Positions 37,100-61,576 are shown, counted from the first letter of the stretch. The stretch: 64,000 nucleotides of DNA from Bacillota bacterium (GCA_021768085.1 JAETOJ010000002.1:62001-126000); one strand, 5' to 3'. A program made the numbers and translations. The notes: generated from the sequence alone by a model not told the origin.

Positions 37100-39166
37100 T
37101 TATTCCGCGCCGGGCCGGTCTGATGGTTCCGCGGGCAAGGCCCGCCCGTTCTCCGCCAGCCAGGCTTGGTAATACTCCTCCCCCGCTGCCAGCAGCTTGG
37201 CGGCGATCCGGGCCGTCTCCACCGCCTCTCCGTCGGAGATAGACGCGGGACAATAGAGCAGCTCCGCGCCAGCATCTTCTAACAGGGGATGACCCGTCAT
37301 TGCCGTCACCGTCCCGCTGTCCAGCTCCACGGTAAACTCCCACCAGCCGGTTTGCGTGTAGTTTCTGATCATGGCCATCATCCTGGTGTCCACCGTCACC
37401 GAGCGGCGGCCCCCGTCCGTCCACCGGGCGTAGATGCTCCCATCGATCTCACCGGCAAACCCCGGGTACACCATAGACAGGTATCCGTAAGGGTAGTCCT
37501 GCCCCGATGCCGACCACGACGCCGGATGCCAGAAGGCCCCCTGTTCCAGCGTCACATTCCCCACGCTGCCGTCCATCCGGACGCTGTGCTCCTCCCCGGC
37601 GGTGTTCAGGGTGAAGGTCAGCTCAGCGGCGGGTAGATCAGGGGCTTCTCCTGCCCCGCCGTCCGATCCGATGTCCAGCCCGTTCTCCGTCAGAATCAAC
37701 CGGCCGTAGCGGGTGCGCGCCCCGCCCAAATAGTCCCGCTCCTCCACCGTGAGCTGATCTCCCACCTGTCCCAGATAGTAGTCATGCGTCATGCGATCTG
37801 CCAGCTCCAGCAGGGAGAAGGATCCGGATTCGTGTAACCACCGGATCACCCGGATACGCTCGTCCCCAATGCCCGATCCGATGCACACCTGGGAGCAGAT
37901 CTCCCGTTTGCCGTCCCCGTCCAGGTCGCATAGATAGGTGTCCTCAATGGGCATACCATCAAACAGCGTTACTTCCTCTCCGTCTCGGACGGCGGTGAGC
38001 TTCCCGGGGTACAGCCGGAAGGTGACGCCGGGGTACTCGTTTAGCCGGATCTCTCGGCACTCATCCCACGCCATCCCATCGATCACAATGGAGTCCACCC
38101 AGATCTCCGCCGGGCCGGGCTCGTGGTATACAAAGTCTATCGGTCTCCCCGGCCCCGAGGAGTAGCCGGGATTGGTGGCCAGGGCCACCCACAGGCCCAG
38201 CACCCCAACGAGGGCCAGCGGCGCCACCCAGAAGGCAGGTTTTTTGTACTTCAAGACGTTCTTGATGCGGCTCTGGAAGCCGCTGCCGCCGAAGGCCAGA
38301 GGCCCCGCCGGCAGCCTCCCGCCCTGGGACAGCCGCAGCAGGGAGGTGGAGTAGTCCGCCCGGATATCCCGACCCATCCGCTCCAGCACCGTCTCGTCGC
38401 AGGACATCTCCATGTCCTTCCCCGCCAGATAAAAGGCCAACCATACCAGTGGGTTGAACCAGTGGACAGCCAGTGCCAGCCACGCCAGCGCCCGGAGGAT
38501 GTGATCCCCCCGGCGAATGTGGGTGCGCTCATGGAGGAGGATATAGTCCCGCTCCCCTTCCGACAATCCGGAGGGCAGATAGATTTTGGGCCGGATCACT
38601 CCCAACACAAAGGGAGACGAGATGTGATCCGCCAGCCGGACGTTTCTCTCCCCCTCCAGCGGCACGGCCCCTATCAGCTTCCACCGCAGCCTCAACAGGG
38701 AGATCAGGCTGTAGCCCATCAGGACGGCAAACCCGGCCAGCCAGATGGCCGCGGGCACAGTGCGCCAGTCCGGCACGGGGCCCAGTTGGTTGATAACAGG
38801 GGCCAGATTCTCCTCCGAATCCCCTCCGATCACCACGGGCTGCCCCTGCTGATAGGGGTGATCCACCAAAAAGTCGTTCACCGGCCGATCTACAGAGGGG
38901 ATGCCGGTCTGGATCTGGATCACCTGATCCGTACCTCCTCCCCGCCCGTCGGCGTACACCATCTGCGCGGAGGGCAGAAGGCTAAAGGCGCTGTCCCGGG
39001 TGAACGGGCACAACAGCCGGAACAGCACCACCGCCCACAGGGCATAGGAGAATATTTTCGGGGCCTTCCGCAGGGCCAGCCGTGCCAGCAGCACAAACAG
39101 GATGACAAAGGATCCGGTGAGGCTCATGCCCACCACGGTGAAGAACAGGTTTTCCATCACCCTCAC
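37100..39166 (-). CDS. M56 family (BlaR1/MecR1-like) metallopeptidase with extracytoplasmic C-terminus
   Basis: YILLHERTHIRRGDHILRALAWLALAVHWFNPLVWLAFYLAGKDMEMSCDE. Confidence 0.88.
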   Translation of the reverse strand: MRVMENLFFTVVGMSLTGSFVILFVLLARLALRKAPKIFSYALWAVVLFRLLCPFTRDSAFSLLPSAQMVYADGRGGGTDQVIQIQTGIPSVDRPVNDFLVDHPYQQGQPVVIGGDSEENLAPVINQLGPVPDWRTVPAAIWLAGFAVLMGYSLISLLRLRWKLIGAVPLEGERNVRLADHISSPFVLGVIRPKIYLPSGLSEGERDYILLHERTHIRRGDHILRALAWLALAVHWFNPLVWLAFYLAGKDMEMSCDETVLERMGRDIRADYSTSLLRLSQGGRLPAGPLAFGGSGFQSRIKNVLKYKKPAFWVAPLALVGVLGLWVALATNPGYSSGPGRPIDFVYHEPGPAEIWVDSIVIDGMAWDECREIRLNEYPGVTFRLYPGKLTAVRDGEEVTLFDGMPIEDTYLCDLDGDGKREICSQVCIGSGIGDERIRVIRWLHESGSFSLLELADRMTHDYYLGQVGDQLTVEERDYLGGARTRYGRLILTENGLDIGSDGGAGEAPDLPAAELTFTLNTAGEEHSVRMDGSVGNVTLEQGAFWHPASWSASGQDYPYGYLSMVYPGFAGEIDGSIYARWTDGGRRSVTVDTRMMAMIRNYTQTGWWEFTVELDSGTVTAMTGHPLLEDAGAELLYCPASISDGEAVETARIAAKLLAAGEEYYQAWLAENGRALPAEPSDRPGAE

Positions 39167-39528
39167 CCCCTGCTCTCGTCGATGAGCCGCTGAAGCTGCT
39201 CCACCTCCTCGGCGCTCAGCTTCTTCCGGCTGGCAAAGGCCGCCAGGAACTTGGGCAGGGAGCCGTCAAAGGCCTGGTCTACAAACTCCTCGCTCTGCCG
39301 GGCGGCGAACTCCTCCCGGCCAATCAGAGAGGTCACCACCCCGCCCTCGTTTTGAAAGATCCCCTTCTGGCACAGCCGCCGCAGCACCGTATAGGTGGTG
39401 GACTTCTTCCAGTCCAGCCTTTGGGCGCACAACTCCACCAGCCGGTTGGACGCCACCGGCTCATTGTCCCAGATCAGGGCGGCAAAGGCGGCCTCTACCT
39501 CGCCCAGCCTGTACTGCGTCATATTCAT
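39163..39528 (-). CDS. BlaI/MecI/CopY family transcriptional repressor
   Basis: LGEVEAAFAALIWDNEPVASNRLVELCAQRLDWKKSTTYTVLRRLCQKG; overlaps BlaR1-like gene. Confidence 0.92.
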   Translation of the reverse strand: MNMTQYRLGEVEAAFAALIWDNEPVASNRLVELCAQRLDWKKSTTYTVLRRLCQKGIFQNEGGVVTSLIGREEFAARQSEEFVDQAFDGSLPKFLAAFASRKKLSAEEVEQLQRLIDESRG

Positions 39529-39622: not shown

Positions 39623-40807
39623 CTACGCCTTGCCCTTCGCCGCCAGCCCCTCCAGGCTCTGGCCCTTGAGGCACCGCTCCAGCAGCTCGGGCAGCCGCTC
39701 CGGGGCGCAGGCGAAACAGGGAACGCCCAGATTCGCGATCCGCCGGGCGGTCTCCGGGTCGTAAAAGGGCTTGCCCCCGTCAGCGATGGCCAGCAGCACC
39801 ACCACGTTCACTCCGGAGCTTTTCAGCTCCTCCACCCGGCGCAGCAGAGCCGCCCGGTTGCCCCCCTCGCACAGGTCGGAGATGAGGAAAAACAGGGTTT
39901 TCGCCGGGGCCTCGATGAGCCCCTGACAGTAGGCGATGGATTTGGCGATGTCGGTGCCGCCCCCCATCTGGAAGCCGAACAGTAGATCCACCGGGTCGGC
40001 GCACAGGGGTGTCAAGTCCATGATCTGGGTATCGAAGGCCACCACGCTGGTCTTGACAGCGGACATAGAGGCCAGCACACAGGCCATCACCGACGAATAG
40101 ATGATGGACTGCCCCATAGAGCCGCTCTGGTCGATATCCAGAATGATGTGCCAGCGGTTGATCTTGCTGGAGCGGTCAAAAAACCACACCCGCTCCGGGA
40201 TCACAGCCTTCAGCTCCGGGCTGTAGTTTTGCAGGTTCCGCCGAATGGTGTAGGGGAAGTCGATGGCCGCCGCCGACGGCAGAGGAGCGTGGGCCCGGCG
40301 GTTCAGCGCCGCCGTCACCGCCCGGCGCACGTCGTTTTCCAGCAGGCGGTTGATCTCCTCTACAATTTTGCGGATAAACTTCCGGGCGGACTCCTTGGAC
40401 TTTTTGGGGATCTGATCCTTGAGCATCAGCAGCGTGGAGGCCAGATTCAGATCCGGCTCCAGCCCCTCCAGCAGCTCGGGCTCCAGCAGCAGCTGCTTCA
40501 GCCCCTTGCGCTCAATGGCGTCGTTCTGCACCACCGCCACCATCTCCGGGTCAAAAAGAGAGCGCAGATCCCCCAGCCACTTGGAGATCACCGGGGAGGG
40601 CGGGCCCTTCCCCGCCCCGCCGGACGCCCCGCCGCCGCTTCCGAAGCTCTCACCGGGCCCGCCGTAGATGGCCCCCAGCGCCCCATCCATGAGCAGCTCC
40701 TCCTGGGACAGGCCCCCCGCCCCCATGCCGGTGAAGGAGTTCTCCGTCTCCGCGCCTAAAATCAGCCGCCAGCGGGAGAGTTGTTCGGTCTGCGCCATGG
40801 GCCGCAC
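39623..40807 (-). CDS. VWA domain (CoxE-like) protein
   Basis: WHIILDIDQSGSMGQSIIYSSVMACV (MIDAS DxSGS), GGGTDIAKSI, FLISDLCEGG. Confidence 0.88.
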   Translation of the reverse strand: MRPMAQTEQLSRWRLILGAETENSFTGMGAGGLSQEELLMDGALGAIYGGPGESFGSGGGASGGAGKGPPSPVISKWLGDLRSLFDPEMVAVVQNDAIERKGLKQLLLEPELLEGLEPDLNLASTLLMLKDQIPKKSKESARKFIRKIVEEINRLLENDVRRAVTAALNRRAHAPLPSAAAIDFPYTIRRNLQNYSPELKAVIPERVWFFDRSSKINRWHIILDIDQSGSMGQSIIYSSVMACVLASMSAVKTSVVAFDTQIMDLTPLCADPVDLLFGFQMGGGTDIAKSIAYCQGLIEAPAKTLFFLISDLCEGGNRAALLRRVEELKSSGVNVVVLLAIADGGKPFYDPETARRIANLGVPCFACAPERLPELLERCLKGQSLEGLAAKGKA

Positions 40808-40810
40808 CTC

Positions 40811-43123
40811 CTAAATGTCGTCAAAATCGAATTCGTCCAGGCTGTCCAGCACCGCCTGCTCCGCCTCGGTCACGTCGTTCCGCAAAAGCTCCGCCGCCTG
40901 CTGGACATTGACGCCCCAGATCTCCCCCAGGTTCTCCGCGATGTCGTTCTTTTCCGAGGGGGAAAAGTCGGCAAAGGCCCGCCGCAGGAACACCAGCGCC
41001 CTCCGGAAGGTTTCATCGTCCAGCCCACTGAGGTACTGATCCAACTGCCGCCACAGGGACAGCCGGGCGATGAGGGCATAACGGTTTTTACCCGCCAGCC
41101 CCTCGAACCACCCCGCCCCAAGGTCGGCGGGCACCCCGGGGGACAGCCGCCGGGCCACCTCTCGGGACAGCAGCTCCTCGTCCGCTTTGCCCCGCTCCAG
41201 CAGGATGGCCATGGCGAAGCCGGAGCACCGGGTGTTGAGATCGTCCCGATCCGAGATGCTGGTCAGCAGATTGAGCCACCGATCCTCCTCCAGAAATTCG
41301 TGGCTTAGCTGTAAAGTATTTAGCCTATCCATCGCCTGTGTAACAGCAGATGCGGCTTTACTATCGCATACGCAGGCGCTTTCCAGCGTCAGGCACGAGC
41401 GCAGATAGAGCTGCTTGATCAGCGGCACCACCGGGGCCGGGTCGAACCGCCTCAGGTCGCCGTACCGCACCACCAGCGACAGCCGTGAGGCCGTCTCCGC
41501 CACTTCCGAGATGGCGGCGGAGTCCACGCTCAACCCCTGCAAAACCGACAGCGCGTGGGCCGCTGCCCCGGGCATCCCGCACAAAAAGGCATCCTGGAAG
41601 ATGGCCGCCGCCTGGGCGATAGAGCTGCTGTTGTCCGCCCGCTCCTTCAGGGCGAAGGCCGCCGCCCCCTCGATGGTATCCCCCATGAGGGCGGACTCCA
41701 CGATCTCGATCTCCGCCTCCGGCGTCCAGCGCAGCTCCCAGTACTCCCCCCAGTTTGCCCCGTCCTGCCGGGAGGGGAGCAGATTGGCAAAATGCACCCC
41801 TAAAACCCGCAGCCGGTGGAGGAAAAACGACCGCCGCAGATCGCCCAGCGCCGCTGCCTCCGACTTCACGTTCAGCTTCTCCCGCAAGTCCAGATCCAGC
41901 CGCTGCAGCTCGGCGGCGCGGTACTTCTCCAGGCGCAGGGCTTTGAGCTGCCGGTAGAAGTCCTCCTGCACCGACGTGCGGGCCACCCCCTCCGGGAGGA
42001 AGCCAATCTTTTTGCCGATCTCGGTGTCCGCCGCCGCGACGGCCAGCTCGGAGAAGCTTCCGTGGCCCATGGTGGTGACGGAGGCGTCCCGCAAATCCGA
42101 CAAGGCAGGATACTTGCTCCCCCGCATGGCGGCCAGGGTATTGGCCAGCCGCACCGCCTCAATGACCTCGGCGGAGGACACCAGGTTGCCCGCCTTGCGG
42201 TGGGCGGCGGCCAGCCGCGTCAGGTAGAGATAGGCCCCCTCCTCCACACCGCCCCGGTTTAACGCGTCCCACAGCAGCTCGAAGTAGGCTGGGGCCTTGT
42301 TCCCCGCCCCGTAGCCGGAGCGAGAGGACAGCCGGTAGTAGGAATAGGGCATCAGCGTGGCGCAGCAGTCCGCCTTGGGCAGGGCTTTTTCTTCTTCATC
42401 GGTCATGGGCTGGTTTTCCTCCAGCCCCGCCACGTGGAAGGAACCGCACACGCAGAAGATCTTCTCCGCAGGCACGCCAGAAGCGACAGCCTGGGCCATG
42501 ACCCGCTTCATGTACGCCTCCCGCACCACGGTTTCCGCCAGATCCCGCCCGCCCTCCAGGGACGCCGCCCGGAGCTGCCGCCCGAAGGTGTTGTTGACGG
42601 CCTGGAAGTCCTCCCCGTCCCCCAGTTGCTCAAAGCTCCGCTCCCAGAAGGTGTCGTGATCCTCCCCCGTCAGGGTTTCCAGGCCCTTGTAGACGCTCTC
42701 GGTGGTGACAGGGGCGTCCGGCTCCCCTAAAGCGTTGTCGCCAGCCTCGCCGCCGTCGTCCTCCTCCGACCGCAGGGCGGCCCGCTTTGCCGCCGCCTCC
42801 GCGAACGCCAGGAACACCGACGACGGCAGATCCATAAACCGGCACTCCACCCCGTGCTCGTGGGCCCACAAGATCGCCTGCGTCTCCGGGGAGTAGATGG
42901 CAAAGGGCCACAAAACTGTCCGCACCGGCGGCTCCTTGGTATAGGCCAGAATGGCCGCCGGGAACCGGGTGTCCGGGTGGCACAACCACCTCATCTGATC
43001 GTTGAGATCGCTGGGTCCCTCCACCAGCACCAGCTCCGGCTTTGCCTCGTCCAGCGCCTTTCGCAACCGAAACGCCGCCGCCGGGGACAGGTGGCGGATG
43101 CCGAATAACGTCGGCCCGCTCAT
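40811..43123 (-). CDS. DUF5682-like protein (possible TraB/ChaN/EreA-like N-terminal fold)
   Basis: MSGPTLFGIRHLSPAAAFRLRKALDEAKPELVLVEGPSDLNDQM ... IFCVCGSFHVAGLEEN; overlaps MoxR gene. Confidence 0.75.
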   Translation of the reverse strand: MSGPTLFGIRHLSPAAAFRLRKALDEAKPELVLVEGPSDLNDQMRWLCHPDTRFPAAILAYTKEPPVRTVLWPFAIYSPETQAILWAHEHGVECRFMDLPSSVFLAFAEAAAKRAALRSEEDDGGEAGDNALGEPDAPVTTESVYKGLETLTGEDHDTFWERSFEQLGDGEDFQAVNNTFGRQLRAASLEGGRDLAETVVREAYMKRVMAQAVASGVPAEKIFCVCGSFHVAGLEENQPMTDEEEKALPKADCCATLMPYSYYRLSSRSGYGAGNKAPAYFELLWDALNRGGVEEGAYLYLTRLAAAHRKAGNLVSSAEVIEAVRLANTLAAMRGSKYPALSDLRDASVTTMGHGSFSELAVAAADTEIGKKIGFLPEGVARTSVQEDFYRQLKALRLEKYRAAELQRLDLDLREKLNVKSEAAALGDLRRSFFLHRLRVLGVHFANLLPSRQDGANWGEYWELRWTPEAEIEIVESALMGDTIEGAAAFALKERADNSSSIAQAAAIFQDAFLCGMPGAAAHALSVLQGLSVDSAAISEVAETASRLSLVVRYGDLRRFDPAPVVPLIKQLYLRSCLTLESACVCDSKAASAVTQAMDRLNTLQLSHEFLEEDRWLNLLTSISDRDDLNTRCSGFAMAILLERGKADEELLSREVARRLSPGVPADLGAGWFEGLAGKNRYALIARLSLWRQLDQYLSGLDDETFRRALVFLRRAFADFSPSEKNDIAENLGEIWGVNVQQAAELLRNDVTEAEQAVLDSLDEFDFDDI

Positions 43124-44214
43124 CACCCGTTCAGCTCCCGGCAGGCGCGGTACAGCGGCAGCCACTCGTGCCCCCGCTTCTTCATCACGTTCTCCAGGTA
43201 TTCCTTCCAGGTCACCTTGTCGTGTTCTTCATCCTTGACCACAGCCCCCTGAAGGGCGGCGGCCAGATCTCCGTCCGAGATCCGCCCGTCCCCGAAGCTC
43301 CCGGCCAGAGCCATGGAGTTGGCCAGCAGGGAAATGGCCTCAGCGGTGGACAGCACGCCAGAGGTGGTTTTCAGCTTCTGCTTGCCGTCCAGGGTAGCCC
43401 CGGCGCGCAGCTCTCGGAAGATGGTGACCACCTTCTCCACCGTGTCCTCCCCCGGCTGGCGGGCGTTGAGATCCAGCCCCGCGGACAGCTGGACCACCCG
43501 GGTGCGCACAATATCCAGCTCTGTCTCCATATCCGACGGTGTGGGCAGGACGACGATGTTAAACCGCCGCTTCAGCGCCGCCGACATATCGTTGACGCCC
43601 TTGTCCCGGGTGTTGGCGGTGGCGATGACGGAGAAGCCTTTGGCAGCGGGCACCTCCAGTCCCAGCTCGGGCACACTGAGCCGCTTTTCCGACAGGATGG
43701 AGATCAGCGCGTCCTGCACCTCGCTGGCACAGCGGGAGATCTCCTCCACCCGGGCGATGGAGCCCGTCTCCATGGCTCGGTAGACCGGGCTTTTGACCAT
43801 GGCCTCGGGACAGGGCCCCTTGGCGATGAGCATGGCGTAGTTCCAGGAGTAGCGGATGTGCTCCTCGGTGGTGCCCGCCGTGCCCTGGACGACCTTGGTG
43901 GAGTCCCCGTTGACGGCGGCGGCCAGGTGCTCACTGAGCCAGGACTTGGCTGTCCCCGGCTCGCCGATGAGCAGCAGAGCCCGATCTGTCACCAGCGTGG
44001 CGATGGCGATCTCCACCAAACGCTTGTTGCCCATGTACTTGGGGGTGATTTCCACCCCCTTGACCTTGGTGTTCCCCGTCAGGTAGGTCAGCACCGACCG
44101 GGGGGACATCCGCCAACCAGTAGGGATGCTCTCCGTCTCCGCCGACATCAGCGCGTCCAGCTCGGTCTGATAGAGCTCCTCCGCCGGGAGGCGCTGTACG
44201 TTTTTGTCAGACAT
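43123..44214 (-). CDS. MoxR-type AAA+ ATPase
   Basis: LLIGEPGTAKSWLSEHLAAAV Walker A; SIARVEEISRCASEVQDALISILSEKRL; VIATANTRDKGVNDMSAALKRRFNIV. Confidence 0.92.
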   Translation of the reverse strand: MSDKNVQRLPAEELYQTELDALMSAETESIPTGWRMSPRSVLTYLTGNTKVKGVEITPKYMGNKRLVEIAIATLVTDRALLLIGEPGTAKSWLSEHLAAAVNGDSTKVVQGTAGTTEEHIRYSWNYAMLIAKGPCPEAMVKSPVYRAMETGSIARVEEISRCASEVQDALISILSEKRLSVPELGLEVPAAKGFSVIATANTRDKGVNDMSAALKRRFNIVVLPTPSDMETELDIVRTRVVQLSAGLDLNARQPGEDTVEKVVTIFRELRAGATLDGKQKLKTTSGVLSTAEAISLLANSMALAGSFGDGRISDGDLAAALQGAVVKDEEHDKVTWKEYLENVMKKRGHEWLPLYRACRELNG

Positions 44215-44228
44215 GATTCCACGCTCCT

Positions 44229-46160
44229 TTACTCATTTTCCCATTTGCCAATCATGTCCTGTATCATGGCATCGGGCCAGGTGCCCCGCTGGGCCCGGAG
44301 CTTCTTGGCTTTGATCAGGCCGGCGACCTCCCGAAGCTGGGCAGCCTTCTCCTTTCCGGAGACAGGCAGGGCATCCAACATAGTTCGGACAGAGAAGTAT
44401 GACACTTCTCCCTGAGCCTGGGCGTACCTGACAAAGAAGCCGTCCCAGTCCTTCCAGCCGCATTGAATCAGTGTGCGGACATATTGGATATAACCGCCTG
44501 CATTTTTTCCGCGTGTAGCCCGGGTGTAAAGGTATTTTCCCACCTTGTCCATTACCTGGTGATCCATGGGCCGGATCAGATTCATGATCTGCGTGTCCAT
44601 TCCGCCCATTTCCAGCAGCAGCTCGAACCACACCGGATCCAGCTCCTGGGTGAGGATTGGGTGCTCCTCTGGTTCAAAAAAGGCCCTAATGTTATTTGCG
44701 GGGTCGTTGGCGTAGACCATATACTCATAGCGGCCGTTGTTCCAGCACAGGCCCCACATCACATCCTGGAGAATGCCTCTGGTGTCGGCATCCTTTCTGC
44801 CGAACAGCTTGAATTTGGGCCGTAGCAGCTCTTTCGCCCTCTGCCCCGCCGTCTCGCTGTCCTCGGTGAGCAGCGAGGCACACAGATCGGGGGCAATCCA
44901 CCTACCGCCATAAACCCTGGCCAGTTCCCCGGCCAGGGTGCACAGGCTGCTATCCCGGGTAAGCTGGATGGAGCGCATCAGGGTGAAGGGCATGGCGGCG
45001 CTGAAATACCGCTGAGAATCAGGGTCAGTGGTGGCACCCCGGCAATAAAACCGCATGGGTCTTGTTTTTGTCTTGCCGTTTTCCTCGCAGGTGTAGTCCC
45101 GATCCAAGGCGGCGCCCAGACCGGCGGCAGCCCGGAAAGCCTCACAGACCTTGGGCCCAGTCTTGCACTCGATGGCGGTGCGCAGCTGGCCCAACAGGCC
45201 AAACAGCTCGTCGTTCAGGGGCATATTGGGGTTCTTTTTGACCCGTTCCACCGTCTGGAGGAACCACTCAGCGGTCAGGTCAGTAGCCGTTCGGGCGGAG
45301 GAGAGCCGCATGGCCTCCAGCGCTCCGCCCATGTCTTTTTGGGCCAGTGTCTCCCAGTACGTCCGGGACTCCCCGGTCTCCATTCGCGCCAGAGCAAGCT
45401 GGGCGGCCTGCCTGCACTCCTTCTTCTCCGTCTGGCACAGACCGATCAGGGTCTGGGCGTTGGCGGGGTCGTGCCTCAGGGCGAGGATCAGCGCCTGCCG
45501 CACCGGCTTTTTCGCCTGGGGAAGTTGCTCCAGATACCAGGCATTCTCCGAAGCCCCGGCAATCTCCTCCATCACCTGAACCCGTCGGGCCATCTCCTTC
45601 TTCCCGGCGGGGTCGAAGCCCTCCTTCAGCAGAGGAACGGCGGCGGGGCCGGATCGCCCCAAAATTTTCCCGTTCTGATCGGCCAGCTCCCCGTAGCTGT
45701 CCCCAAGGCCGGCCACCACCGCGGGCAGCACCCGGAAGTCGGTGAAAAATGCAGGGTGGTTTTCCCAGGTGGACTGGATAGTCTCCATCCGCCCGCCGCC
45801 TGTCCCGGTGAGGGCAGTAAGCAGAGGCTGGAGCTGACTGTAGGACAGCTCCTGATACTGGCCGCCCCCGACAGGTAGGGACTTTAGCTCCCCCTCCACG
45901 CCGGTCTTGGCTTGGGTGTAGGCCACCGCATCCACCAGGGCCAGTACGTCCAGCAGCAGGCCCGCCCGCTGATCCGGCGGCGCGGCCAGCAGTTTTGTCA
46001 ACCCACCGTCAATCTTCCCGAACACCGGGCTGGCCGCAGCCAGGGGCTTGAGGGCCTCCGCCGCCCGCTGGAGCCGGAAGTCCTCCCCCAGCAGGGATAC
46101 CCCCGCAATGGCGGCGTATTCCAGCCGCTCCTTCACGTCGTAAAGAGGTTGTAAGTTCAT
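44229..46160 (-). CDS. large uncharacterised protein, DUF5691/HEAT-repeat-like
   Basis: 643 aa, alpha-helical repeat character (e.g. RQALILALRHDPANAQTLIGLCQTEKKECRQAAQLALARME); fixed position in operon. Confidence 0.6.
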   Translation of the reverse strand: MNLQPLYDVKERLEYAAIAGVSLLGEDFRLQRAAEALKPLAAASPVFGKIDGGLTKLLAAPPDQRAGLLLDVLALVDAVAYTQAKTGVEGELKSLPVGGGQYQELSYSQLQPLLTALTGTGGGRMETIQSTWENHPAFFTDFRVLPAVVAGLGDSYGELADQNGKILGRSGPAAVPLLKEGFDPAGKKEMARRVQVMEEIAGASENAWYLEQLPQAKKPVRQALILALRHDPANAQTLIGLCQTEKKECRQAAQLALARMETGESRTYWETLAQKDMGGALEAMRLSSARTATDLTAEWFLQTVERVKKNPNMPLNDELFGLLGQLRTAIECKTGPKVCEAFRAAAGLGAALDRDYTCEENGKTKTRPMRFYCRGATTDPDSQRYFSAAMPFTLMRSIQLTRDSSLCTLAGELARVYGGRWIAPDLCASLLTEDSETAGQRAKELLRPKFKLFGRKDADTRGILQDVMWGLCWNNGRYEYMVYANDPANNIRAFFEPEEHPILTQELDPVWFELLLEMGGMDTQIMNLIRPMDHQVMDKVGKYLYTRATRGKNAGGYIQYVRTLIQCGWKDWDGFFVRYAQAQGEVSYFSVRTMLDALPVSGKEKAAQLREVAGLIKAKKLRAQRGTWPDAMIQDMIGKWENE

Positions 46161-46172
46161 CCCCGCACCTCC

Positions 46173-47615
46173 TCAATATTGCAGCCGGAGGATCTCGTCC
46201 GGCGTCACCACGCTGTAGGGGTGGAGACACAGGGCCTTATCCCGCCCGTCGTAGAACATCAGCCCAAACAGGGCACTACCCGCTGGGATTTCCCGGGGAA
46301 GCATCCCCAGCCGCTCTGTACAGGCGTGATCCGTCCCGTCCTCCGCCCTGTCCCGCAGAGCGATCCGGGCCCCCGCCGGATCCTCCAACACGTAGTCCTC
46401 CCCAATCCTGCCAATGCTCCCGACGGGCAGCAGCACCGCCAGAAACTTGGGCGCCAGGGTGTTCTTGATCTTCCCTTTCACCAGCTTGACTGCCTCCGCC
46501 ACACCGGGCTGAGCCAGCCTGGGCAGAGCCGCCTGCTCCTGGGCCGTCAGGGGCCGGGTGGACGCGCCCTCCCAGCGCACCCGCCGATCCCCCTCCCCGG
46601 GGTAGATGTATAGGGCCGGTGTGTCCAGCAGCCCAAACCGGCTGTCCTCCCCCTTCACGTACTTCAACGCCTTCAGGGGGCGCAAGTTCAGGGTCTGCCA
46701 GAGCTCGCCGCTGTCAACATCCAGCCACCAGCCCCGCTCTACGTACTCTTTCCTGGCCTCGTCCAGCGACACGTCAAAGGAGAGCTGCACCAGCTTCGCG
46801 TTCTCTCTGACAGAGCCGATGGCCCCCAACTCCTCCAACGTCCACACCCCACCCAGCGCCTCAAAGAGGGCGGAGTCCTGGTTGGAGAAATCCCCCACCT
46901 CCAGCTTGCCCTCCAAAAACGTCCGGCCCTTTTTGATGGTGGAGCGCAGGGCCACCAGGATTCGCAGGGCCTCGGCATAGGCACCGTCCGCTCGGGTGGG
47001 ATCCTTCTGCACTGCACGCACCGCCAGGGCTACCCGGGTAAAGGCCGTCTGGGGCCCGGTGAGGTAGCAGCTGCCCAGCTCCTTGGCCAGCTTGTCAAAG
47101 GTTTGGGCGGAGCTGCCGGCCAGGGTGCCCAGGCCAGAGGTCAGCAGCTCGTCCATCATCTTCTCCGCCATGTCCAGCCCTTCCAGTTGCCGGGCAAGCT
47201 TTTTCTTTCGGGCAGCAGCATTGGGCTTTTTAGGCTTGGGGGGGTCGTCCGCGGTCCCCTCCCTCTTCGCTGCCCGGGCGGCCTGCTTGGCCCGCTTGTC
47301 CGCGATATCCTCGGGAATCTCTGCTGTCTCGAAGGGCTTTGCCCCCAGGATCTCGAACATCAGCCCCAAGGCGTGCTTACAGGGAAACTGCCGGCTGGGG
47401 CAGGAGCACCGGCAGGTGGGCGCGTCCCGATTGGTGAAGTCGATGGACACCCGATAGGGGGTTTTTCCGCTGCCTGCGCACTCCGCCCAGTACAGCGTGC
47501 CGTCCTGGGTTCTGCGATGGGCAGAAAAACTGCCCTTTTTCGACAGCTTCCTCCCGTTTTCCGCCGCCGCGGGGTTGGGCGCCTGGAGAAGAATAAATTG
47601 TTCGGTCAAATCCAT
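46173..47615 (-). CDS. SWIM zinc-finger protein
   Basis: PTCRCSCPSRQFPCKHALGLMFEIL (CxC...CxH SWIM motif). Confidence 0.88.
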   Translation of the reverse strand: MDLTEQFILLQAPNPAAAENGRKLSKKGSFSAHRRTQDGTLYWAECAGSGKTPYRVSIDFTNRDAPTCRCSCPSRQFPCKHALGLMFEILGAKPFETAEIPEDIADKRAKQAARAAKREGTADDPPKPKKPNAAARKKKLARQLEGLDMAEKMMDELLTSGLGTLAGSSAQTFDKLAKELGSCYLTGPQTAFTRVALAVRAVQKDPTRADGAYAEALRILVALRSTIKKGRTFLEGKLEVGDFSNQDSALFEALGGVWTLEELGAIGSVRENAKLVQLSFDVSLDEARKEYVERGWWLDVDSGELWQTLNLRPLKALKYVKGEDSRFGLLDTPALYIYPGEGDRRVRWEGASTRPLTAQEQAALPRLAQPGVAEAVKLVKGKIKNTLAPKFLAVLLPVGSIGRIGEDYVLEDPAGARIALRDRAEDGTDHACTERLGMLPREIPAGSALFGLMFYDGRDKALCLHPYSVVTPDEILRLQY

Positions 47616-56767: not shown

Positions 56768-57769
56768 CTATGGCGTGTCGGGTTCGCTGGGTTCGTCCAG
56801 GCCGAAGCCTGGGACAATGGTGGTGTCGGGATATTCGGCGGGAGCACTGCCCTTGTCCGGAATGTCCTGTGTGCTCCCTACAATAAAATCCTCATGAAAT
56901 GGGCTGATGATAGATGCCGTAATCTTAATGACTTCCTCCAATTCCAACCGCTGTGCCTCAATTTCGTACTCCACCCCATTCAGGGTAAAGGCCGCTGTAT
57001 AGATGTCGTAGTATCCAGCAGGCGTTTTAGAGGCGCCATCACCGTAAGGGAGAGAACAGTGCCTGAGCGTGACAGGCACTCCGCCGAAGTCAGTAGTCCG
57101 CTCATTATCCACTGGGAGAAGGCAACAGTGTAGAATACGCAGCCTGGAAGCTCTGATGGTAAAACCTTGGGGAATCACAATGTCATCATTAGACTTAGGG
57201 CTTCCGTCCTCCCCAAAGTCCACCCAGAAACTCCGGCCCGCCTGATCCTCAACAACATTCCCGGTAGCTTTCTCCCGGACAATGCGGCCCGACACAGCTT
57301 TCCCGCCCCCGGTAAGATCATCAGGGATATAGGCAGGAGCTAACTCCCAGCCATAGTAGGCTCTGACACCCTCCGTATTCAAAATTTCCTCGTTATAGAT
57401 AGCAGGATCTCGGTAAAGCGGGGCGGCATTCTGGGCCAGCCCTGCCGACTCGTTCACCGCTACGTTGTCCCAGTTGATGGTAATCTCCGGCTCACTGGGC
57501 GGCTGAAGGGGCTCAACGCTGGGCTGGTCTCTGCCATCGCTGGCCACAGGGCCGGGAATGCTGGGATCCGGGGGCGGCACGATAGTGCCTTGGCCCTTCA
57601 AAATGCCCGGTAGCGCCGCCATGGTCACCGTGAAGATCAATCCAATGCACGCCGCCATGGCCCCCCATTTCAGCCAGCCGCTTTTCTTTTTACGCTCATA
57701 GGTGATAGCTTCCATAATGTACTTGTCGTTGACTTTTCCCAGCGCACTGGAAAATTGTGCTGCGTTCAT
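56768..57769 (-). CDS. anti-sigma-factor-like membrane protein
   Basis: MNAAQFSSALGKVNDKYIMEAITYERKKKSGWLKWGAMAACIGLIFTVTMAALPG; start overlaps stop of upstream ECF sigma gene. Confidence 0.75.
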   Translation of the reverse strand: MNAAQFSSALGKVNDKYIMEAITYERKKKSGWLKWGAMAACIGLIFTVTMAALPGILKGQGTIVPPPDPSIPGPVASDGRDQPSVEPLQPPSEPEITINWDNVAVNESAGLAQNAAPLYRDPAIYNEEILNTEGVRAYYGWELAPAYIPDDLTGGGKAVSGRIVREKATGNVVEDQAGRSFWVDFGEDGSPKSNDDIVIPQGFTIRASRLRILHCCLLPVDNERTTDFGGVPVTLRHCSLPYGDGASKTPAGYYDIYTAAFTLNGVEYEIEAQRLELEEVIKITASIISPFHEDFIVGSTQDIPDKGSAPAEYPDTTIVPGFGLDEPSEPDTP

Positions 57770-58326
57770 CGTATAACCCCTCTTTCTTCAAAATAGTGCC
57801 GCAACTGCTTTCGGATACGGGTCAGCCGGACAGACACGTTCTTTTCCGATAAGCCTGTCCGCGCCGCAATCTCCCCATAGCTGTCGGAGAACCAGTACCG
57901 GCGCATGAGCAGGACACGGTTCTCCGGGGACAGCGTTTCCAGGAAGTCCTCGATCAGCCGGACAAGCTCCTGTTCCTCCAACTCCCCCTCCACAGTTCGG
58001 GGCGAGGCCAGACAGTCCTCCAGCTCCTCCAGCGACACGGTGTAGCTCCCGCCGCCCCGCTTGGCCGTTTTTCCCGCATGATACCGCATGAGGGAGAGAT
58101 TGCGGACGATCCGGCACAGGAACGCCAGCAGTGGATCGGGCCGGGCCGGCGGGATGGCGTTCCAGGCGCCAAGGTAGGCGTCGTTCACGCACTCCTCCGC
58201 GTCCTGGCGGCTGTGCAGGATGTTATAGGACAGGCTGTGGCAGACCTTACCGTATTTGCCGTCCAGCTCCCGGATCGCCTGCTCCGACCGGGCGAAAAAC
58301 AGTTCTATGATGGCGCTGTCCTCCAT
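57766..58326 (-). CDS. RNA polymerase sigma-70 factor, ECF-type
   Basis: NILHSRQDAEECVNDAYLGAWNAIPP (region 2); LSPENRVLLMRRYWFSDSYGEIAARTGLSEKNVSVRLTRIRKQL (region 4). Confidence 0.93.
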   Translation of the reverse strand: MEDSAIIELFFARSEQAIRELDGKYGKVCHSLSYNILHSRQDAEECVNDAYLGAWNAIPPARPDPLLAFLCRIVRNLSLMRYHAGKTAKRGGGSYTVSLEELEDCLASPRTVEGELEEQELVRLIEDFLETLSPENRVLLMRRYWFSDSYGEIAARTGLSEKNVSVRLTRIRKQLRHYFEERGVIR

Positions 58327-59381: not shown

Positions 59382-60863
59382 TCAATACTTGCGGGGGTTA
59401 TACAGCCCCTCCGGGGCCAGCTGTCCCTCAGAGCCCCACTGGTACATCCGCCACTGCCAGCTGGGCGCGGAGTAGAACCCGGCGGCCAGGATGTCGGACG
59501 GCAGGGCGTAAGGGTACTGCCAGCTGCTGCGCTTGTGGGCGATGGTCACGGTGTAGTTGTAGAGTGACACGGTCTCCGGCAGAGAGGGCGCCGCCTCCCA
59601 GAACAGGAAGGCCTCCGTGGGGCCATCGACCTCCTCCGGCAGAGCGAAGTCGGTGTAACAGCAGGGCCTCCCGGCGCCGTCCGCCTCAAACCGGAAGTCC
59701 AGCGGCATGGTATAGGCCGTCCCCGCGCTGTCCCTCCACTTCAGCACCCCCTCCACCCTGGTGGTATGGACGGTAACGCCCTGGATGTCCTGTGCCACCT
59801 GGATCCCCTCCATATAGCCGCCGGACGCCTCGCCGGGGTTCCAGCGCAGGTGGGCCAGATACACGCAGCGGAACCCATACCGCTCGTCCCGCACCGGAAC
59901 CTCAACGGTGATCACGCTGGGCATACCGTCTGTATGGGGGCCGGCCGGATCGTGATACCCCTCTTTTTTCAGCCCGTAGGCCCCCTCAAACCGGGCCAGC
60001 TCGTTGTCATCCAGCCCGCCCAGGATATCCTCCGGGAAGCCCAGCTCCAGCAGTTCTCCGCGGAGGGGGGAATCGCCCACGTCGGAGCCGTACTCAGGCG
60101 TATGCTCTCCGTCCGGCAGGCGGGCGAATATTAGGGGCAGGACGCCCACCGCCAGCAGATGGAGCGCCAGCCATACGGCCAGCACAACCCGGCCGGACAT
60201 CCGCGACGGGACGGCCTTCAGCACGTACCCCGCCTGATCCAGACTCCTGCTGACCTTGCGTAAGCCCACCAGCAGGCAAATCCAGAGGATCAGGAGCGGC
60301 CCCACCAGCAGCCAGCCCTCCAGCCCAATGAGCGCCATGGGCAGCAGCAGGGTCTCCACGATGACCACCCCTCCGGCCGCAGTGGTGCGGGGCTTCTGCC
60401 CTGCCCGGCGGAATACCCCCTTGAGGCCCTGCCACAGCCCGCCCACCACTAAGATCAGGGTGAGCTGGAGCGCCACCGTCCACAGCACGTTGTAGACTGG
60501 TACCGCCCCTGTGGTGGTGTTCCATTCCCCGCCTACCAGCTCCTCCAGCCGGCCATCCAGGGGGGTGGCCTGGAGCAGCACCACGGCCAGCCGCAGCGCG
60601 GCGTACAGGCCGGCGCAGCCGCAGGCGAACCGGAAGGCACCGTTCTCCCGGCGCAGGGCGCCCAGCCCCAGCCACAGCAGCACCGCGCCCACCGCCGGAA
60701 GAATGAGGTTCAGCCCAAAGCCGTTGATGGTGATGGTAATGAGCGCCAGTCCCCAGCAGATCAGGCCGACGGGCTTTTTCCACGGGCAGGGCGGTTCCAG
60801 CTTCGCCAGCTCCGGCGGCAGCTGGGCGGAGCCCACATAGAGCAGACGGTCAAATTCATCCAT
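59382..60863 (-). CDS. multi-TM membrane protein, likely sigma-factor partner
   Basis: Several TM helices then extracytoplasmic domain; start overlaps the stop of the sigma gene. Confidence 0.7.
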   Translation of the reverse strand: MDEFDRLLYVGSAQLPPELAKLEPPCPWKKPVGLICWGLALITITINGFGLNLILPAVGAVLLWLGLGALRRENGAFRFACGCAGLYAALRLAVVLLQATPLDGRLEELVGGEWNTTTGAVPVYNVLWTVALQLTLILVVGGLWQGLKGVFRRAGQKPRTTAAGGVVIVETLLLPMALIGLEGWLLVGPLLILWICLLVGLRKVSRSLDQAGYVLKAVPSRMSGRVVLAVWLALHLLAVGVLPLIFARLPDGEHTPEYGSDVGDSPLRGELLELGFPEDILGGLDDNELARFEGAYGLKKEGYHDPAGPHTDGMPSVITVEVPVRDERYGFRCVYLAHLRWNPGEASGGYMEGIQVAQDIQGVTVHTTRVEGVLKWRDSAGTAYTMPLDFRFEADGAGRPCCYTDFALPEEVDGPTEAFLFWEAAPSLPETVSLYNYTVTIAHKRSSWQYPYALPSDILAAGFYSAPSWQWRMYQWGSEGQLAPEGLYNPRKY

Positions 60864-61422
60864 GGATCACACCTCCCAGTTCCTCCCGCAGCTGCTTGCG
60901 GATGCGGTACAGCTTGCCCTCCACCGCCCGGACGGTTAGGCCGCACTCGGCGGCGATCTGCGCGGTGGGCTGATAATAGTAATATTTACGCAAAAACAGA
61001 TCCCGTTCTCTGCGGCCCAGCTGCCCCACAGACGCCCATAGAGCCTGTGCCGCCTCCGCTTTCAGCAGGGACTGCTCCGGGCCGTCGGCGGCGTCCGGCA
61101 TGGCCTCGTCCAGCGCACCGCCCTCCTGGAGGCGTTCATTGGATCGGCGGCGGTTGAGGGCCACGTTGCGGGTCAGGTGGGTGAGCCAGGTGGTCAGGGC
61201 GGCCTTGCCGGGGTCAAACGTGCCGATGGAGTTCCACACCCGGAGCAGCACATCAGACAGGCACTCCTCCCGATCCCGCTCGTCGGGGAGGATAGGAGCG
61301 ATGATGTACCGCAGCAGAGGGGTGTACGCCGTCTGGAATTGCTCCATCACGCCGTCCTGCCGGGTTTGCAGGGCACGGATCAGCTGCACATCCTCCACAA
61401 TGTATCCCTCCTTTTTCTTCAT
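60856..61422 (-). CDS. RNA polymerase sigma-70 factor, ECF-type
   Basis: DREECLSDVLLRVWNSIGTFDPGKAALTTWLTHLTRNVALNRRR; LGRRERDLFLRKYYYYQPTAQIAAECGLTVRAVEGKLYRIRKQL. Confidence 0.92.
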   Translation of the reverse strand: MKKKEGYIVEDVQLIRALQTRQDGVMEQFQTAYTPLLRYIIAPILPDERDREECLSDVLLRVWNSIGTFDPGKAALTTWLTHLTRNVALNRRRSNERLQEGGALDEAMPDAADGPEQSLLKAEAAQALWASVGQLGRRERDLFLRKYYYYQPTAQIAAECGLTVRAVEGKLYRIRKQLREELGGVIHG

Positions 61423-61576
61423 ATGTCCTACTATACACCGGTGGCGGCAAAATCCCACACGAAATTTCCAAGAAATTGCGGGCGCAGAAAATGCCTGTCC
61501 GCGCTCTGGGGAAGGCGGGCAGGCGTTAAACACTAAAGGATGGAACCTAACTCATATTTCTGGAATGACGGCTCTA

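Follow-up and report, generated by a model that had tools for sequence, protein, structure and literature searches.

A five-gene MoxR/VWA operon with a predicted TIKI/TraB-type hydrolase and a repeat protein of exchangeable C-terminal part

A MoxR AAA+ ATPase, a DUF5682 protein and a VWA protein form the core of a compact operon in which the C-terminal part of a neighbouring repeat protein has been replaced in place between close relatives, and in which the N-terminal domain of the DUF5682 protein very probably belongs, on profile and signature evidence, to the TIKI/TraB/PrgY/EreA hydrolase superfamily. The operon lies in the window, by which is meant the whole stretch of 64,000 nucleotides that was analysed (Bacillota bacterium, GCA_021768085.1 JAETOJ010000002.1:62001-126000); the genome assembly comprises 110 contigs with 2.94 Mb in total. 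The operon, its conservation, the kinship of its core with YehL/YehM/YehP and the replaced half of the repeat gene are secure, and the gene set itself is already known from other bacteria. What is new is the superfamily assignment of DUF5682, the swappable C part of the repeat protein and the alternative modules found on the three-gene core. The YehL/YehM/YehP set occurs in about 98% of complete Escherichia coli genomes and in many phyla.

Operon layout, known relatives and distribution

Five consecutive minus-strand genes encoding, in order of transcription, the SWIM, repeat, MoxR, DUF5682 and VWA proteins form a tight operon at 39623-47615 (Table 1). The first-pass annotation had proposed one such operon with gaps of 3-14 bp or a 1-bp overlap, and both frames and spacings agree with it: the intergenic spacings are 12, 14, -1 and 3 bases, the ATG of the SWIM gene at 47615 is preceded by AAGGAG, and the ATG of DUF5682 overlaps the TGA of MoxR by one base. 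The intact Walker A (GEPGTAKS) and MIDAS that it had reported are present and conserved over about 98 loci. The MoxR proteins keep the Walker A Lys in 97/98 loci and the Walker-B-like EE, the sensor-1 Asn and the RRF arginines in 98/98 each; the D-S-S-T-D MIDAS of the VWA protein is complete and conserved in about 98 loci; and the CxC...CxH of the SWIM protein is intact in all copies that cover the motif (75 of 79 aligned, the other four being gaps). The DUF5682 protein passes the curated cut-off of PF18934 (525 bits vs 26), and the HEAT_2 Pfam score of the repeat protein is only E=0.012.

Table 1. Features of the operon, with positions counted from the first letter of the window
Feature	Position	Strand	Basis
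SWIM zinc-finger protein, 480 aa, first gene	46173..47615	-	PF04434 E=4e-8 (Pfam)
SWIM motif CSCPSRQFPCKH	near 47355-47456	-	
Repeat protein, HEAT-like alpha-solenoid (predicted), 643 aa, constant N and interchangeable C part	44229..46160	-	AlphaFold, Foldseek, divergence pattern
Repeat protein, constant part, residues 1-160	45681..46160	-	75-88% aa identity vs eight same-genus relatives
Repeat protein, variable part, about residues 200-643	44232..45550	-	aa and nucleotide identity
MoxR AAA+ ATPase, YehL subfamily	43123..44214	-	PF07728 (AAA_5) E=1e-38
Walker A GEPGTAKS in MoxR	43942-43965	-	
DUF5682 protein, 770 aa, YehM homologue, N-terminal TIKI/TraB-like domain and helical C-terminal part	40811..43123	-	PF18934 E=3e-157
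DUF5682, predicted hydrolase domain	42254..43123	-	hhalign and invariant residues
Predicted catalytic residue H11	43091-43093	-	
Predicted catalytic residue E35	43019-43021	-	
Predicted catalytic residue R201	42521-42523	-	
Predicted catalytic residue H230	42434-42436	-	
VWA (CoxE-type) protein, complete MIDAS, YehP homologue	39623..40807	-	PF05762 (VWA_CoxE) E=4e-44

The gene set is of a known kind, its MoxR, DUF5682 and VWA proteins being homologous by sequence comparison to YehL (39% over 368 aa, E=9e-80), YehM (25%, E=9e-31) and YehP (34%, E=1e-74). YehL names one of seven MoxR subfamilies (PMC3893208), and the window MoxR is placed there by sequence similarity and by its DUF5682 and VWA neighbours, which are as in E. 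coli. In E. coli K-12, yehL (MoxR), yehM (DUF5682), yehP (VWA) and yehQ (SWIM) are consecutive and are preceded by yehI (DUF4132, MolR). Since this strain carries yehLMPQ and the families are named at NCBI, the set is not an unknown one. No functional study of the set was found in the literature covered, which takes in few subscription journals: DUF5682 is named in none of its papers, and the two papers that name two or more of yehL/M/P/Q are not functional studies by title and abstract.

The E. coli genes resemble the window in the order of the three core homologues and in having a SWIM protein in the operon. They differ in that the SWIM gene comes last and is without detectable homology, a DUF4132 protein replaces the HEAT-like protein, and the set belongs to the core genome (yehLMP in 5305 of 5426 genomes, about 98% of complete ones, with roughly one chromosomal copy per genome). 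Homology of YehQ and YehI to the SWIM and repeat proteins of the window was considered, and neither BLASTP nor phmmer gave a match. The yehI and yehQ genes have diverged further than yehLMP (90-95% in about 2000 genomes), yet they have not been replaced, and hypervariability of YehI was not seen among the E. coli genomes at the sensitivity used. On one conjugative E. coli plasmid with resistance genes (NZ_CP103756.1, 105365-130780), a chromosomal yehI-yehLMPQ-btsSR-mlrA segment lies between IS26 copies.

Plasmids of Rhizobium etli and Deinococcus taeanensis carry genes annotated in the order SWIM-DUF5691-AAA-DUF5682-VWA; Hymenobacter has this order with SWIM and DUF5691 fused. These operons share with the window the gene order and homologous SWIM, MoxR, DUF5682 and VWA proteins; they have DUF5691 where the window has a repeat protein without detectable relation to it. 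An assignment of the repeat protein to DUF5691 (PF18944) was rejected, with no Pfam match and an hhalign result of E=0.09 (probability 0.6%).

Relatives were sought by a locus scan anchored on MoxR alone, from which the best-scoring 80 named loci were taken, so that the sample leans to closer relatives; they span Clostridia, Paenibacillus, Cohnella, Treponema, Rhodopirellula, Desulfovibrio, Bacteroidota, Verrucomicrobia and others. Together with genus relatives, E. coli and plasmid loci, they give 101 loci with a MoxR frame. DUF5682 follows MoxR directly in 100 of them and the exact five-gene order is found in 65; further loci carry additional copies of the repeat gene or are truncated at the end of a contig. 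This linkage is far beyond chance, and the neighbourhood analysis excludes the alternative that the genes of the proposed single operon are not co-conserved. The SWIM-repeat-MoxR-DUF5682-VWA order recurs in Clostridia, Paenibacillus, Treponema, Desulfovibrio and others. The MoxR of the window shares 97% identity with the one in an Oscillospiraceae MAG (L035), which makes a gut member of the Oscillospiraceae the probable source. The occurrence is patchy. DUF5682 is found in 12 of 37 same-genus genomes, the window's own included, and in the phylum as a whole 8 of 399 genomes have it above the cut-off; the surroundings of the operon differ between relatives, which places it at several genomic sites.

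The three-gene core MoxR/DUF5682/VWA is combined with different SWIM modules and different large partners (HEAT-like, DUF5691 or DUF4132/MolR), also inside the window's genus. DUF5682 and VWA form one polypeptide in L101, L030 and L026, and SWIM and DUF5691 are fused in L029. Three relatives in the window's genus carry an E. coli-like variant, with MoxR-DUF5682-VWA followed by a YehQ-like protein, and two of them (L023, L024) have a DUF4132 protein beyond it. Similar actinobacterial sets had been mentioned in the first-pass annotation, which is partly right: a Streptomyces plasmid carries a variant with the order DUF4132 / large protein / AAA / DUF5682-VWA fusion / SWIM-like protein.

Other arrangements were also seen. 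The order is HEAT-SWIM-MoxR, not SWIM-HEAT-MoxR, in L057 and L091, which shows that the two genes of recognition type are able to swap positions. Large DUF4132 (MolR-like) partners occur as tandem duplicates beside the core in K-12 (yehH pseudogene and yehI, L002:2411-8912) and in Iodobacter (two copies, L034:4303-10848), which is reminiscent of the duplicated repeat genes in window-type operons. A sequence labelled Bacteriophage sp. (unverified; MT835988.1), possibly bacterial DNA, has MoxR-DUF5682-VWA and was the sole match in the phage collection; scans of viral contigs gave generic MoxR relatives only.

Predicted hydrolase domain of DUF5682

The assignment of the DUF5682 N domain is carried by profile comparison and by a shared signature. 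Its alignment to PrgY/TraB by hhalign gives E=5e-5 (score 42.9, shuffle maximum 21.1) and to GumN E=0.0016 (score 33.6, shuffle maximum 18.9), where reversed alignments score 15-16 and the mutual score of PrgY and GumN is 41.5; against the Ere family alone the score was within the column-shuffle range. The signature of the domain, G-[IV]-R-H...(24)...E followed by R-E-x-x-M...G-x-x-H, parallels that of PrgY/TraB, G-T-A-H...(24)...E followed by R-D...G-A-A-H, and GumN and Ere have the same order. Residues R10, H11, E35, S78, E80, D98, E165, R185, R201, E202 and H230 are invariant in 66/66 DUF5682 proteins, and the residues tested are invariant in at least 97 of 98 loci. In characterised members of the superfamily, EreC depends on H50, E78 and H289 for catalysis, with R261 stabilising the transition state (PMC7979712), and the His-Glu pair of RRSP and its partners are essential (PMC6254334).

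In the AlphaFold model (pLDDT 87) the N domain has alternating strands and helices and the remainder is mostly helical, an order of elements that fits the TIKI type. Foldseek with the whole model, dominated by the helical C part, gave nothing below 1e-3 against the PDB, and a PDB sequence search with DUF5682 profiles gave chance matches only. The assignment consequently rests on sequence, as the whole-model search did not confirm the fold. DUF5682 thus resembles the TIKI/TraB/PrgY/EreA/ChaN superfamily in the H...E...R(D/E)xxM...GxxH residues, in their similar spacing and in the alternating beta/alpha order of the model; it differs in the large helical C-terminal part fused to the domain, the linkage to MoxR/VWA and the invariant Arg before H. 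With its N domain placed in a hydrolase superfamily, DUF5682 is a likely enzyme, which supports the earlier suggestion that it is the effector or enzyme of the set, and the assignment names putative catalytic residues that are open to mutation.

Constant and variable parts of the repeat protein

The AlphaFold model of the repeat protein is a nearly all-helical solenoid (pLDDT 90) and its best Foldseek matches, which are weak, are HEAT solenoids (SF3b, karyopherins); it is confidently predicted to be an alpha-solenoid. Of the five components it is the least conserved by a wide margin, with a mean identity of 26% vs 73% for MoxR and 51% for DUF5682. The variable part has 26-47% amino acid identity to same-genus relatives and 80% to the more distant L037.

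Comparison of the window with L019, of the same genus, gives pS values of 0.14-0.28 for the SWIM, MoxR, DUF5682 and VWA genes vs 0.51 for the repeat gene, for which pN is 0.41. Along this pair the nucleotide identity stays near 0.9 across the SWIM gene and the first part of the repeat gene, drops to 0.3-0.5 at about 45400-44200, and is 0.94 again at MoxR; the same dip in the repeat gene is found with L016, and downstream syntenic genes are mostly 85-99% identical. In the clearest case, L017 and L018 have both flanking gene sets in common at about 94% identity over 20 kb, the sole dip being about 1.6 kb of the repeat gene (0.31-0.64), which ends at the gene end. The same constant/variable pattern is found between L015 and L017.

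The identities of the N and C parts are 80% and 80% for window-L037, 88% and 28% for window-L019, 96% and 98% for L018-L020, and 76% and 29% for L017-L018. Because the first pair has 80% in both parts and the second 88% and 28%, the C part is not merely a fast-evolving half. The core genes reject a clade of window and L037 (p-AU 0.00016), and the repeat C-part data reject a clade of window, L016 and L019 (p-AU 5e-5). The alleles look functional since the within-class omega is 0.18 (window-L037), and this value, together with a between-class pS of about 0.5 (0.14-0.28 in the neighbouring genes), argues that they are exchanged and not degenerating. The same discrepancy between core and repeat genes in Lachnospiraceae (L057 vs L061/L062; weaker in Paenibacillus) means that the pattern is not confined to one genus. 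The split also recurs inside single loci: L036, L040, L056, L069 and L073, from several families, hold two or three tandem copies whose identity is 75-89% over the N part and 39-70% over the C part.

Such swapping is how the recognition parts of immune-like systems behave. The repeat protein had earlier been suggested as a scaffold; a passive scaffold is not favoured by these data, which fit better with a variable module for recognition that has a constant N and a swapped C part. The alleles also constitute natural pairs, with the same locus and core and a different sensor half, for asking what is recognised. No silent repeat-gene cassettes were found elsewhere in the window's own genome (assembly about 91% complete), and no convincing long repeats or inverted pairs, as a sign of an invertase, near the variable part.

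Proposed response system, rival readings and neighbouring genes

Computed directly were the gene set and its linkage, the intact motor, MIDAS, zinc-finger and hydrolase motifs, the TIKI signature, the solenoid fold, the constant/variable split and the in-place replacement. We give an even chance to the reading that the five proteins form a MoxR/VWA-powered recognition-response system with a variable sensor and a hydrolase effector; from it we infer complex formation, the order of events, the activity and substrate of the hydrolase and the nature of the ligand. The alpha-solenoid would dock to the other components via its constant N part, and its swappable C part would recognise a variable ligand, most likely a phage or other mobile-element product, with the SWIM protein aiding recognition or scaffolding. 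Recognition would engage the MoxR hexamer, which would act on its VWA partner; the latter, through its MIDAS, would hold and remodel DUF5682 and turn on its hydrolase domain of TIKI/TraB type. This domain, most probably a peptidase or amidase, would execute the response.

The MoxR/VWA remodelling pair that had been proposed for this locus is supported. In the NorQD pair, the MoxR ring is plugged by the VWA domain, action on the client requires the MIDAS, and the client is remodelled by a twisting motion that ATP drives (PMC9976466, PMC13036017); by analogy, MoxR/VWA would act on DUF5682, to which VWA is physically linked in the fusions named above. For the MoxR-vWA conflict systems described in the literature, the proposed sensor is a component that varies fast and the proposed effector a peptidase, and one lineage is diversified by retroelements (PMC7159879, PMC10907252, PMC12839542). 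In the window operon, the repeat protein with its swapped half would suit the position of the sensor and DUF5682 that of the enzyme. The ternary systems with VMAP or iSTAND (Kaur et al., 2020, PMC7159879) resemble the window in the MoxR/vWA switch, the predicted hydrolase and the fast-varying, non-enzymatic putative sensor. The window differs in lacking matches to VMAP, iSTAND and EAD and an effector fused to VWA, and in a hydrolase of TIKI/TraB type. Since Pfam scans found no VMAP, iSTAND, EAD or vWA-fused effector, the operon is seen as working like these systems but is not counted as a member. The window MoxR scores 29.3 bits with bpMoxR (cut-off 27) vs 132.9 with AAA_5.

The conflict-system option, also raised by the first-pass annotation, gains indirect support from swapped alleles, patchy occurrence and different genomic sites, but stays a candidate: PADLOC gave no convincing match, no phage test of the gene set was found in the literature covered, and in E. 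coli the set belongs to the core genome. The PADLOC-DB 2.0.0 models gave weak partial matches only in the operon (best E about 1e-4), and scattered defence matches only on 149 neighbouring genes, for which there was no baseline for comparison. Against the recognition-response reading stand these PADLOC results, the ubiquity of yehLMP in E. coli, unlike a typical accessory defence system, the absence of hypervariability in YehI at the sensitivity used, the whole-model Foldseek search that did not confirm the TIKI fold, and the lack of an effector that would obviously kill a cell. A hitherto unrecognised, immune-like class of bacterial systems that includes E. coli YehLMPQ, in which a MoxR/VWA motor would activate a TIKI-family hydrolase upon solenoid sensing and the ligand-binding half of the sensor would be diversified by in-place allele replacement with no retroelement, is a tentative proposal that we regard as somewhat doubtful. 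If the recognition reading is true, the locus adds a way to diversify the sensors of MoxR/VWA systems that needs no retroelement.

The main rival, rather unlikely in our judgement, is a dedicated maturation chaperone with a metabolic or stress housekeeping role, in which MoxR and the CoxE-type VWA would insert metal into DUF5682 or assemble it, with the SWIM and repeat proteins as assembly factors. A MoxR and VWA pair with MIDAS is present beside DUF5682, the putative metal-requiring client, and NorQ/NorD, CoxD/CoxE and RavA/ViaA share with the window the MoxR ATPase, the VWA with MIDAS and the CoxE-type VWA. To our knowledge, these pairs are without a linked SWIM protein, DUF5682 or hypervariable repeat protein. 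NorQ/NorD are encoded with their client cNOR, and both ATPase and MIDAS are required for metal insertion (PMC9976466, PMC13036017). The window VWA being of CoxE type, the position of DUF5682 between MoxR and VWA or fused to the latter, and the presence of the gene core in the E. coli core genome fit this reading as well. TIKI depends on metal, but its superfamily relatives EreC and RRSP do not, and a chaperone does not explain the replacement of the repeat C part, the tandem duplications or the several insertion sites.

Improbable by comparison is a proteostasis role, in which the motor would deliver proteins to DUF5682 for trimming, new N-termini would be exposed for N-degron degradation, and the repeat alleles would pick substrates. 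TIKI-superfamily relatives include proteases, and genes for ClpS, ClpA and leucyl/phenylalanyl-tRNA-protein transferase lie 4-60 bases after VWA in four Lachnospiraceae loci; these, however, are one clade (MoxR 93-98% identical), and the transferase is absent from 60/60 relatives, DUF5682 carriers included. In those four loci (L056, L057, L061 and L062, e.g. L061:14537-17940) the three genes are on the same strand as the operon, as if an N-degron pathway were co-transcribed, a linkage confined to this clade.

For the repeat gene, there is a small probability that the pattern is neutral, relatives keeping different copies without selection for recognition after tandem paralogues, N-part gene conversion and random loss, for which speak the five loci with tandem copies and the three copies of L040 with C parts from both deep classes, but single-copy loci show the split at one syntenic site with intact frames (L017/L018), and window and L037 are of the same class although L037 lies outside the genus clade in the core tree. 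As a way by which alleles move, a tandem-paralogue route is possible.

A BlaI/BlaR1 (M56) pair lies downstream of the operon at 37100-39528 of the window, and also in L019 and L035; it is probably a separate unit, given the TTGACA-17-TAGACT at 39593-39565. BlaR1 has a short divergent stretch at about 38650-38800 between window and L019, and in L024 such a pair lies divergently upstream of the variant operon. LexA-box-like regulation was rejected, as the scan gave fewer matches than chance. Upstream of the operon are two genes for sigma-70-family (ECF-like) factors (57766-58326 and 60856-61533), and in L016, L019 and L022 a relative of one of these immediately precedes the operon.
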